Assembly (NCBI GenBank): GCA_012840245.1
Contig: DULR01000015.1
Coordinates: 1 to 64,000 of the forward strand
Reading direction: 5' to 3'
DNA: 64,000 nt
DNA from: Clostridiaceae bacterium
GTDB taxonomy: Bacteria; Bacillota; Clostridia; DSM-8532
Below are positions 55,059 through 59,302 of this stretch, piece after piece (within the stretch, counting starts at the first letter, position 1; every line of letters starts with the position of its first letter). Position numbers and translations under genes: made by a program. The notes under the pieces were generated by a model. The model did not search any database and was not told the origin of the DNA. It saw nothing but the letters and a program-made list of their open reading frames with translations.

Positions 55059-56065
55059 ATAGCCCTCACGCTTTCCCTTTCAACGAGATATGTGGGCAGG
55101 ATTACCTCTCTTTTCTCAGGTTTTTTGCCTTCAAGCATCTCGAGCATCATATCAACGGCGATTTTTCCGCGCAGGGGGATATCCTGGTGTATTGTGGTCA
55201 GCGTAGGTGTGACCATCTGGCAAAGGCTTATATCGTCAAAGCCCACCACAGATATGTCATCAGGGACCTTTTTCCCGCACCTGCGCAGGCCTGCCATTAT
55301 GCCGGCGGCCATGACGTCAGCGGTCACGACGATTCCGGTGATATCAGGAATTTTGCATATTTCTTTGCTGAGGCTCAGGCATGATTCTATGTCCATTTCA
55401 TTTTCAAACACGAGTCTTTTGTCAAAAGGAATCGAGTTTTCGGTCAATGCGGCTTTATATCCATAAAAACGTTCCTGCAAAACGCCGCCATCCCTGATGT
55501 TGGGAGAAGCGAACGCTATACGCCTGTGGCCTTTTGAAATCAGATATTTGGTAGCGGTATAGCTTCCCTCAAAGTCTTCCAGACCAACGTTGCAGAAATT
55601 GGGATGCTGTACATAGCTGTCTATCAGAACGATGGGAATGGTAAGTGTTGAAAGCAAATCAAAAAATTCGTCTTTGAATATGCCGGTAAAGAACATGCCA
55701 TCCACATTCCAGTTCCTTAGGAACTTCAATAGCTCTTCGGATGTCTCTACCGTCCTTAGCATAAGGTAATACCCGTTTTCGCGCAGCACGCGCTCAATAG
55801 CTCCAATAAAAGACGACTGGAAAGGATCTTCCATGATATTTGACTGGTTGTGCGGAACGATATGGTTGATCATGCCGATAACTTTTGATGAATTCGATAC
55901 CAGGGAGCGCGCCGACATATTTGGCACATATCCCAGCTCGATTATCGCTTTATTTATTTTTTCTATCGTTTCGGCTGATACACGCCCGGATTTGCCATGG
56001 ATAACATTTGAAACAGTCGTGGCACTTACTCCAGTAACCCTGGCTATGTCTTTTATTGTTGCCAT
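55055..56065 (-). CDS. LacI-family repressor
   Basis: 336 residues. N-terminal HTH and hinge (TIKDIARVTGVSATTVSNVI; 2-60, with the AINELGYVPN-like hinge region) and a sugar-binding core (about 60-330). It is convergent with the GH65 pair and shares with it a near-identical operator, which points to control of the pair and of itself. The effector could be a GH65 substrate. CAAGGAG lies before the ATG. Confidence 0.94.
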   Translation of the reverse strand: MATIKDIARVTGVSATTVSNVIHGKSGRVSAETIEKINKAIIELGYVPNMSARSLVSNSSKVIGMINHIVPHNQSNIMEDPFQSSFIGAIERVLRENGYYLMLRTVETSEELLKFLRNWNVDGMFFTGIFKDEFFDLLSTLTIPIVLIDSYVQHPNFCNVGLEDFEGSYTATKYLISKGHRRIAFASPNIRDGGVLQERFYGYKAALTENSIPFDKRLVFENEMDIESCLSLSKEICKIPDITGIVVTADVMAAGIMAGLRRCGKKVPDDISVVGFDDISLCQMVTPTLTTIHQDIPLRGKIAVDMMLEMLEGKKPEKREVILPTYLVERESVRAI

Positions 56066-57255: not shown

Positions 57256-57297
57256 AAAACAGACGGTCAGGCTTAAAAAGCTGTACCGTCTGTTTTT
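57256..57297. terminator. Bidirectional terminator between cupin and antiporter genes
   Basis: 12-bp stem AAAACAGACGGT / ACCGTCTGTTTT, extended by CAG / CTG inside, then TTTTTG on the plus strand and TTTTGATTTG on the minus strand. It lies between convergent stops at 57235 and 57318. Confidence 0.9.
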
Positions 57298-57317: not shown

Positions 57318-58493
57318 TCAATAAGCGCTTATTTCTCCGGCTTTCTCCAGACCTATTTTTGTGATTCCGGGACCTACAAGCTCATATATCAGGGTTGCGC
57401 ACAGGATCACGGCTCTTATGGTCGAACCATACTCAGGAAGCGTCTGGGCTGCTATCAATGAAAGTCCGATAGCTACACCGGCTTGCGGTATAAGTGTCAA
57501 TCCCAGATGCTTTCTGACTGTTTCCGGAGCTTTCATCAAGGCTGCTCCAAATGATGCGCCAGAAACCTTTCCGATAACTCTGACCACAACGTAGATCACA
57601 CCTATAAGACCTATTTCAGGCAATACGGTTATATTCAGCTCAGCTCCTGAGACTACAAAAAACATAAGGAATATGGGCGGAGTTATATTATCCACAAGCT
57701 TGAAGATGGACAGCGCCGAATCGCTCACATTCGCAAGCATCGCACCCATACACATGCACAGTAGCAATGGTGAAAGCCCCAGCATGGTTGCAAGCGCTGA
57801 ACCCAGGAAAACAAACCCTACGGTGATTATGGTCCTGTTGGAATCCTTCCTGAAGAAACGAAGCGGTACTTTGAAAAGAAAACCAAGTACAAAACCCAGA
57901 AGCACTGATCCGATTATTTCTATGAATGGCAGCGCCACCGACATGACCACAGAGTTCTGTCCAGGATGCAATAAGGTGTTCACAACTGCCATAGAGAATC
58001 CAAATGCTATCAGAGCAACGGCATCATCCAGCGCAACGACGCTTAAGAGAGTCTCGGTAAGCGGTCCTCTGGCTTTATACTGCTTTACGACCATTATCGT
58101 TGCCGCAGGCGCAGTTGCTGAAGCTATAGCGCCCAAAAGCAATGATATTTCTATACCGAAGCCAAACAGAACAAGAACTACCGTTACCAGAAAAGTAGCA
58201 GAAAGACCTTCAAAGGCTGCGATCACAACTGGTGCGATACCTACCTTTTTCAGATAAGACATCTTGAATTCAGATCCGATCGAAAAGGCTATGAACGCAA
58301 GAGCCATCTCAGATATGAGTTCGAATTCTGTAACGATATCCCTGGGAATCAGGTTCAATATGTAGGGACCTATCAGAAGCCCTGCTATCAAATATCCTGT
58401 TACATTGGGGAGCTTGATCAGTTTTACCGCACGGCCGAATATAAGCCCTGAAAAAAGTATCAGAGCCAGATAGAACAAAGTATTCACTGTCAT
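57318..58493 (-). CDS. CPA2-type cation:proton antiporter
   Basis: 391 residues, about 12 membrane helices, of the KefB/NapA-like CPA2 family: LPNVTGYLIAGLLIGPYIL near the start, and VALDDAVALIAFG with the paired acidic residues of the ion site. It lacks the C-terminal TrkA-N/RCK domain of KefB. It starts two bases after the PII-like gene, so the small protein may replace that domain as regulator. Exchanges Na+ or K+ for H+. Confidence 0.9.
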   Translation of the reverse strand: MTVNTLFYLALILFSGLIFGRAVKLIKLPNVTGYLIAGLLIGPYILNLIPRDIVTEFELISEMALAFIAFSIGSEFKMSYLKKVGIAPVVIAAFEGLSATFLVTVVLVLFGFGIEISLLLGAIASATAPAATIMVVKQYKARGPLTETLLSVVALDDAVALIAFGFSMAVVNTLLHPGQNSVVMSVALPFIEIIGSVLLGFVLGFLFKVPLRFFRKDSNRTIITVGFVFLGSALATMLGLSPLLLCMCMGAMLANVSDSALSIFKLVDNITPPIFLMFFVVSGAELNITVLPEIGLIGVIYVVVRVIGKVSGASFGAALMKAPETVRKHLGLTLIPQAGVAIGLSLIAAQTLPEYGSTIRAVILCATLIYELVGPGITKIGLEKAGEISAY

Positions 58494-58495
58494 GA

Positions 58496-58837
58496 TCAGA
58501 ATCCGACCCCCTCAGCAGAAAGAATCGGAAGTGTGAAGAGAATCGCCGTATCAGGCTGAGACAGATCGCCCACTACCTCCCGGGCAATTTTTCTCACAGT
58601 ATCGACCTGTTCGTCCTTAAGTACCATGAAGATAGTTTTGCTTTCTTTTCTCTCAAAATCGATCAGGTAACGCAAAGTTCCAAAGATAGGATAATCCTCG
58701 ATACGCTTGCCCAATTCTCTGACCATACCGGTGCTGGAAAGAATTGTCGCCCCGCATATGCCTTTGGCCATAAGAGCCTCGAGCAGATCGTCAAGCTTCT
58801 CGACCTTGTTCAATACCATCAATAAAAGCTGCATCAA
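58496..58837 (-). CDS. PII-like small regulatory protein
   Basis: 113 residues with a ferredoxin-like fold pattern of PII/PII-like proteins: MQLLLMVLNKVEKLDDLLEA, a loop GATILSSTGMV, and the C-terminal VGDLSQPDTAILFTLPI. It lacks the Tyr-uridylylation T-loop of true GlnB. Being cotranscribed two bases ahead of the antiporter, it is probably its nucleotide-sensing partner, as PII-like proteins act on other carriers (SbtB with SbtA). Inference. CGGAGATG precedes the start; M1 or M2 may be used. Confidence 0.8.
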   Translation of the reverse strand: MMQLLLMVLNKVEKLDDLLEALMAKGICGATILSSTGMVRELGKRIEDYPIFGTLRYLIDFERKESKTIFMVLKDEQVDTVRKIAREVVGDLSQPDTAILFTLPILSAEGVGF

Positions 58838-58911
58838 TTTTCATCTCCGTTTTATACTTCGATCAAGAGTAAAATCTTAAGGAAATAATAAAAGCTTTAT
58901 CACATTATTTT

Positions 58912-58940
58912 ATCCTAGTACTATGGAGTTGTGTTGTCAA
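58912..58940 (-). promoter_or_regulatory. SigA-type promoter of the PII-like/antiporter operon
   Basis: -35 TTGACA (58935-58940), 17-bp spacer, -10 TAGGAT (58912-58917). The leader is about 70 nt and shows no known riboswitch. Confidence 0.65.
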
Positions 58941-58944
58941 TATG

Positions 58945-59302
58945 GGTTTGTAACAGCTACCCTTGACGATACGGTCTATGTCCTGGTTTTGGAAAGCCCG
59001 TCAAAAAGGCAAAAATGCCTACCGACCGGGCAGATCCCACCATTCAGGTCATGGATGACAAACTGATCACTCTTGGCGGCTGGACTGACGGCACCACGTT
59101 ATCCGACGCAATTGAAACTTATGATCCTGCGACGGACACGTGGACAAAGGCAGGAAAACTGAAACAGCCCATGTGGTGCATGGCTTCGGCATATGTAAAT
59201 GGAAAGCTGTACCTTATAGGCGGAAAAACCACAGGATGGGCTGATGAAACCGGAGGTTACACTGATACCGTCACCGAACTGGAAATAGATTTTGATCCAT
59301 AG
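58945..59302 (+). pseudogene. 3' remnant of a Kelch-repeat gene with a frameshift
   Basis: From 59015 the frame reads KLITLGGWTDGTTLSDAIET, YDPATDTWTKAGKL and LYLIGGKTTG: one and a half Kelch blades and the end of the gene (TAG at 59300). Upstream, ATLDDTVYVL (about 58955-58985) continues the pattern in another frame, so there is an indel near 58985. No start signal. The stop is 12 bp from the convergent pyruvate kinase stop. Confidence 0.7.

Follow-up and report, generated by a model that had tools for sequence, protein, structure and literature searches.

Two genes on the minus strand of the window, the whole stretch of 64,000 nucleotides that was analysed, encode a small PII-like protein and, directly behind it, a CPA2-type cation/proton antiporter (Table 1). 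That the first gene stands two bases before the second on the same strand had been read in the first-pass annotation and is confirmed here; the PII-like product counts 112 residues from the ATG and 113 from an in-frame TTG at 58837, upstream of this ATG, at which the open reading frame listing starts. Coupled translation of the two genes is plausible from their arrangement, with the SD-like site of the antiporter inside the 3' end of the PII-like gene. A promoter-like site and a strong hairpin appear to enclose the two-gene unit, the promoter being a candidate only: a scan gave 2 promoter-like sites versus 3.3 in shuffled sequences, i.e., not above expectation. The hairpin is likely to be a terminator common to the antiporter unit and the convergent cupin gene.

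No functional tie to the pair was seen for the flanking genes, which comprise a GH65 enzyme, a LacI regulator, the cupin, a Kelch fragment, pyruvate kinase and an FtsX-type permease. The Kelch-repeat frame, which separates the PII-like gene from pyruvate kinase, has the appearance of a remnant of a longer gene. Nothing reached the Rfam gathering score between positions 56000 and 61500 of the window, and the defence-system models matched neither the PII-like protein nor the antiporter.

Table 1. Features of the two-gene unit and its borders, in window positions.
Feature	Position	Strand	Remarks
Hairpin	arms about 57260..57292		T-rich flanks on both strands; z -5.8 (minus), -6.5 (plus); likely terminator
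CPA2-type cation/proton antiporter gene	57318..58493	-	391 aa, no appended domain
Gap, PII-like stop (TGA) to antiporter start (ATG at 58493)	58494..58495	-	2 bases
PII-like gene	58496..58834	-	112 aa from ATG
SD-like GAGGGGGT (GAGGGGG) of antiporter	58506..58513	-	within last PII-like codons; read by eye
SD-like CGGAGATG of PII-like gene	58842..58849	-	read by eye
Promoter-like site TTGACA-17-TAGGAT	58912..58940	-	consensus match, about 78 bases before PII-like ATG; candidate
Kelch-repeat frame	58955..59302	+	PF01344, E 2.3e-12

Predicted folds and signatures of the two proteins

The label “PII-like”, also taken from the first-pass annotation, is weak by sequence and firm by predicted fold. 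The small protein reaches Pfam P-II with E 0.015 and 16.1 bits, below the cut-off of 25, and is missed by both Pfam and NCBIfam at their cut-offs; a sequence search of the PDB gave a PII protein as its top match (E 0.002), and a profile of 15 relatives brought no gain (best 0.03). The AlphaFold model, built on 44 sequences, has a pLDDT of 86.8, its least confident parts being the T-loop (residues 41-60) and the two C-terminal residues. When it was compared using VIA-align, the best 50 rows were all PII-superfamily structures, mostly tied, at Z 11.8-13.2 (top row Z 13.2, rmsd 4.5, 102 aligned), and Foldseek gave a best E of 3.7e-06 with probability 1.00, its rows including the Listeria monocytogenes PstA with c-di-AMP. 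As the predicted model matches PII structures, the protein is placed in the PII superfamily.

By motif, the window protein is neither a classical PII nor a PstA. Neither the B-loop ATP motif TGxxGDGKI of classical PII, nor even GDGK, nor the PstA c-di-AMP motif TKLxxxGGFLxxGNTT (both as given in an excerpt of PMC4316997), nor the CGPxGC redox loop found at the C-terminus of only some SbtB proteins, was present in any of the 160 distinct family members, the window's included. PF06153 (PstA) gave no match to the window protein at E up to 1 and was matched weakly by 2/68 diverse members (best E 0.0037), whilst PF00543 was matched by 62/68 at E up to 10 (best 3.2e-09). The family has a pattern of its own, conserved among these 68 at T30 (68), G36 (67), G28 (66), P103 (66), F100 (65), G109 (64), T67 (61), P94 (60), G89 (59) and K66 (54); position 97 is Gly in 60/68 and Ala in the window protein.

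The antiporter matches PF00999 with E 3.1e-35 and no second Pfam family at E up to 1, TrkA/RCK included. Its AlphaFold model (pLDDT 89.2) superimposes on inward-facing NapA at Z 40.8 and rmsd 3.1 over 374 aligned positions, along residues 2-387 of 391, so that nothing is appended to it. Positions of the CPA motif were placed by us from the NapA alignment and read by the rules in an excerpt of PMC6181914, in which a residue other than Glu at position 5 denotes CPA2, and Asp at 6/7 with Lys at 8 an electrogenic exchanger. Positions 1-4 are A126-T127-A128-P129, position 5 is V152, and positions 6, 7 and 8 are D156, D157 and K309, each in 48/48 aligned antiporters; the CPA2 assignment of the first-pass annotation is thus borne out, and by its sequence the antiporter carries the electrogenic CPA2 pattern. 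It is not of the Kef type, having no Ser/Thr at position 1 or 4 and no C-terminal RCK. Since Ser/Thr at position 1 or 4 is linked to K+ clades (PMC6181914, excerpt), the antiporter probably prefers Na+.

The further claim that the antiporter lacks its usual RCK part holds in so far as neither an RCK nor any other appended domain is present, but “usual” is misleading: by length, none of 193 relatives from the window antiporter's subfamily has room for an RCK, the longest tail being 31 residues in the 156 relatives paired with a PII-like gene and 84 in the 37 unpaired, and therefore no recent RCK loss is shown. The median tail after the profile is 3 residues in paired (n=156) and 21 in unpaired relatives (n=37; Mann-Whitney p 4.6e-14), a contrast which is not counted as evidence, as the tree offers only 2 to 4 independent contrasts, with which significance is out of reach for a sign test. 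Open frames of 537-543 codons are seen in certain other PF00999 genes of this genus.

Conservation of the gene pair

The order, class, phylum and named-locus samples in which the pair was followed overlap (L018 and L002, for example, are one contig). Within the order sample the PII-like gene was found in 15/33 genomes, 13 of them with a full or nearly full adjoining antiporter; of the remaining two, L011 has a partial antiporter at a contig end and in L004 the contig stops before it. The named loci are the best 80 of 316 relatives found, and an antiporter was present in 78 (in L072 its start only), the other 2 being cut off; hence 78/78 judgeable loci are paired, a count biased to success, as these are the closest relatives. 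A few of the 80 are labelled Bacilli, Erysipelotrichales or Chloroflexi, mostly metagenome bins.

In the class sample a PII-like match was found in 85/391 genomes (105 rows). Of these rows 99 were examined, leaving out G053:C1 and five weak or partial ones (G199, G304, G318, G084:C51 and G168), and with 5 at contig ends 94 were judgeable. A PF00999 antiporter adjoins 77 of these 94 genes and is missing beside 17. The antiporter lies within 700 bases in 74 of the pairs and just past a second, tandem PII gene in 3. In every one of the 77 pairs the two genes share a strand, and the 74 divide into 51 with the PII-like gene first and 23 with the antiporter first; as both orders occur among co-directional pairs, this is not one frozen block. 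Neighbours were called with our own antiporter profiles, and Pfam, run on 11 of the antiporters including the window's, returned PF00999 for each. The gene-neighbourhood survey which the first-pass annotation had set as a test shows the pair to be kept in many families within the class.

A match was found in 130/398 genomes of the phylum sample at E 1e-5. Among the 88 rows with E below 1e-22, the window's included, 44 of the other 87 were examined, picked by score and contig completeness, and all 44 have the antiporter, one of these loci being also in the class sample; four antiporters are incomplete as read, L260 and L279 being cut by the contig end and L292 and L297 split between frames. The rows outside the 44 include two genes of G169 that had already been counted as orphans.

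The chance calculation took an estimated 2,000-3,000 genes per genome. PF00999 genes are few (13 matches in 21 genomes), and the window genome contributes a single one at an E cut-off of 1e-5, just as it gives a single match to this PII-like protein at an E cut-off of 10; a random gene would have a PF00999 neighbour in roughly 0.1% of cases, and the pairing is far beyond chance. One scan of viral contigs gave no relative, and two plasmid records had a match. In 306 fetched loci, no PII-antiporter fusion was seen among open reading frames of 100 codons or more. The gene pair is thus real and conserved, and as far as the literature searched shows it is undescribed; no account of a PII-like protein paired with a PF00999 antiporter was found in open-licence PMC papers, which is a weak negative.

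The PII-like subfamily is not tied to one kind of antiporter, as 13 of its partners belong to a second, very different PF00999 subfamily; these were found via their PII neighbours, so that their being all paired is uninformative. Conversely, 37 of the 193 judged relatives in the window's own antiporter subfamily are unpaired, the unpaired ones having been fetched only in part. When 117 antiporters, 102 of them paired and 15 unpaired, were placed on a tree, the pairing label needed 4 changes, and 0/500 shuffles were as low; the starred branches force 2 changes, and the unpaired antiporters fall, within the paired set, into two clades plus two single rows. The tree is unrooted, and gain and loss of the PII linkage look alike on it. 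A wide PII profile (E up to 10) revealed no hidden divergent PII beside unpaired antiporters in 39/40 loci checked, the sole exception, L242, having been fetched for its divergent PII neighbour.

No transporter was recognised next to 14 of the 17 class PII-like genes that have no PF00999 neighbour, and the protein, about one-sixth of whose class members have no antiporter beside them, may have other clients. Two such orphans (L132, L145) are positioned between an aldo/keto-reductase-like gene and an open reading frame which we take to be the asparagine synthetase AsnA, and two others (L139, L148) lie directly 3' of the same gene type, by eye similar to the ribosomal L11 methyltransferase family. 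Tandem PII-like genes adjoin one antiporter at L155, L156, L164, L167, L169 and L174, perhaps making a hetero-oligomeric PII, and at several of these loci one copy has the C-terminal extension RGGELERHIE...EYESEYY.

A proposed PII-type regulator and the alternatives

We propose, with a probability of roughly 65%, that the PII-like protein is a dedicated regulator of CPA2 antiporters, acting like SbtB on SbtA or GlnK on AmtB. A PII-like subfamily dedicated to cation/proton antiporters would be made together with an electrogenic, probably Na+-preferring antiporter of the CPA2 type; its trimer, as suggested by the PII fold, would dock on the cytosolic face of the antiporter, and loop 37-64 (the T-loop) would most likely block or permit the elevator movement. 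A small ligand would set this loop from the inter-subunit clefts of the trimer, which would hold the family-conserved T30, G36, K66/T67, G89, P94, F100 and P103.

The proposal is carried by both fold predictions, by the signature of the antiporter, by the co-directional pairing and by the recurrence of the PII-like subfamily beside a second PF00999 subfamily. The few changes of the pairing label on the tree, the NhaC and ZIP neighbours seen at one locus each (L168, L161) and the loci with two antiporters, each with a PII-like gene to itself, also speak for it. We infer that the two proteins interact physically; inhibition, as exerted by SbtB and GlnK, would by analogy be the direction of control, a trimer is suggested by the PII fold, and for the ligand an adenine nucleotide, the default from the fold, is a first guess. 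Against the proposal stand the want of a fusion in the 306 loci, the 17/94 class genes without a PF00999 neighbour, the 37/193 unpaired antiporters, the missing nucleotide motifs, and the mismatch between a trimer and a dimer. On balance, in many bacteria from guts and digesters the PII-like protein is likely to be the on/off switch of an adjoining antiporter devoid of a regulatory part of its own.

The same genes could be transcribed together without contact between their products, the PII-like protein being made when the antiporter is needed and acting on another target. The class members without an antiporter neighbour, which indicate that the protein can serve elsewhere, would agree with this, as would the outcome of a mean-field coupling analysis, in which 155 concatenated pairs gave no usable signal: the top-30 mean was 0.95 against 0.78-0.85 in six random re-pairings, a difference that shared ancestry alone can give, and the top coupled contacts were scattered and not limited to the T-loop. 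However, both gene orders and two distant PF00999 subfamilies point to a specific partner, as do three loci (L129, L300, L301) with two antiporters, each of which has its own PII-like gene, and we consider co-transcription alone unlikely.

Under the proposed regulation the signal itself might be an ion, the PII-like trimer binding the transported cation or sensing pH and thus providing feedback on cytosolic Na+, K+ or H+. The adjoining cation transporters come from different Pfam families, for besides PF00999 one family member adjoins NhaC (L168; PF03553, E 3.1e-44) and two tandem PII-like genes adjoin a ZIP metal transporter (L161; PF02535, E 7.2e-25), and what these have in common is the ion, not a metabolite. 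However, NhaC and ZIP each occur at one locus only, PII relatives bind nucleotides, and among the columns counted there is no conserved acidic, His or Cys cluster beyond D90 (43/68). An ion sensor is accordingly improbable as a full account, whilst an ion signal is a fair rival to the adenine nucleotide default. The genome of L161 also has a related antiporter on another contig, which is unpaired (L236).

The window genome has further PII proteins. It encodes a 586-aa fusion of an ammonium transporter and a canonical PII domain (G000, contig C59, L303, 1468-3228), a DUF1538 gene with a double-PII gene (contig C80, L304) and a separate canonical PstA with the full c-di-AMP motif (L282), and 3/4 of the PII-superfamily loci found in it are tied to a transporter gene. 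A diadenylate cyclase is also encoded, as is, on another contig, one 467-codon frame with two TrkA_N domains.

The first-pass annotation suggested a separate nucleotide- or c-di-AMP-responsive subunit for cation/proton exchange. The conserved pairing favours the separate regulatory subunit; the nucleotide or c-di-AMP response is unproven, both motifs being found in 0/160 members and a separate PstA in the genome. A c-di-AMP receptor tying the antiporter to the osmotic second messenger would have its cyclase in the same genome and a precedent among the putative cyanobacterial c-di-AMP receptors, which include K+ and Na+ transporters (PMC10117731, excerpt). The fold also matches PstA (Z 11.8), the threonine aligned with PstA Thr-28, whose role is taken from an excerpt of PMC4316997, is invariant (68/68), and two members have the weak PF06153 match. 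Yet the PstA motif is missing throughout, the beta2-beta3 loop is long, unlike the short T'-loop of PstA, and the genome has a separate canonical PstA; such a receptor is quite unlikely, and c-di-AMP as the ligand is less likely than had been implied. Equally doubtful is a nitrogen sensor, i.e., a PII reading 2-oxoglutarate/ATP and coupling nitrogen status to cation exchange, which could draw on the PII fold, the widespread PF00543 similarity and the orphans beside the presumed AsnA, but which is at odds with the absence of TGxxGDGKI and GDGK, the variable position aligned with PII Gln-39, and the Amt-PII fusion available for the nitrogen task.

P-II proteins also adjoin DUF1538 genes, in 7/7 loci picked from the weaker wide-profile matches (L283-L289). 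Since the DUF1538 member UmpAB is a known Na+(Li+,K+)/H+ antiporter (PMC5484666, excerpt; a term search of this paper gave no mention of PII), these loci may be a second PII-controlled antiporter system. Taken together with the dedicated regulator proposed above, PII-type proteins might act as a general layer of control over cation/proton exchange in anaerobic Firmicutes, with one undescribed subfamily serving two PF00999 subfamilies (and NhaC and ZIP at single loci), a second PII group serving the DUF1538/UmpAB type, and a trimeric PII regulating a dimeric elevator antiporter. This wider reading is tentative and falls somewhat short of even odds. According to excerpts of a review (PMC10710835), PII control seems restricted to transporters working as trimers, and the PII-controlled transporters are described as such, whereas KefC and NapA are dimers (PMC11150392, excerpt); a general layer, if true, would break the stated trimer-only rule and pose a symmetry mismatch.

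The narrower proposal of a dedicated regulator would, if true, already take PII control beyond trimeric channels and symporters, to CPA antiporters, which are dimers. A conserved PII-type partner would give antiporters with no regulatory domain of their own a soluble switch, with a bearing on pH and Na+ homeostasis, and would provide a first hypothesis for a PII-like subfamily whose window member escapes the Pfam and NCBIfam cut-offs. PII control of transporters is already known as a kind; its pairing with a CPA2 antiporter is a new variant, so far as the literature searched shows.

Comparison with known systems

GlnK-AmtB and SbtB-SbtA are the precedents for PII-transporter control (review PMC10710835, excerpt). 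SbtB, like the window protein, is a small non-canonical protein of the PII fold whose gene shares an operon with that of a crossover-elevator membrane transporter; however, cyanobacterial SbtA is a trimer and a Na+/HCO3- symporter, the partner here is a CPA2 antiporter, and the CGPxGC loop of some SbtB proteins is missing throughout the family. The T-loop of SbtB inserts in the inter-domain cleft of SbtA (PMC8352866, excerpt), and a paper cited in the same excerpt has SbtA regulated in vivo independently of SbtB. Although SbtA and NapA are both crossover elevators, the topology of NapA is depicted as inverted with respect to that of SbtA (PMC9477730, excerpt), and the docking mode and site of SbtB cannot therefore simply be transferred. 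GlnK-AmtB shares the conserved PII-transporter gene pair and the PII fold; AmtB differs in being a trimeric ammonium transporter, the PII ATP motif is missing here, and the window genome has its own Amt-PII fusion.

Within the superfamily, PstA (PF06153) has the PII fold without the PII B-loop motif, as here, but its own motif is missing in the window's family and a separate PstA is present in the genome. The DUF1538-linked PII proteins resemble the window protein in adjoining an antiporter family, in the window genome too, and differ in passing the Pfam P-II cut-off (4/4 tested), in having in part two PII domains per chain, and in adjoining another membrane-protein family.

KefC and KefB share the CPA2 transport module, and the cytosolic nucleotide-linked control seen on the Kef side is, by analogy, what is proposed here. 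Their control is exerted by a fused RCK domain, nucleotide-binding RCK domains holding the CPA2 module of KefC inactive (PMC11150392, excerpt), and Kef-like clades have the motif L-S-S-T (PMC6181914, excerpt) in contrast to A-T-A-P here. In the simplest model, the PII-like protein would do for a domain-less antiporter, via its T-loop, what the RCK domain does for KefC.
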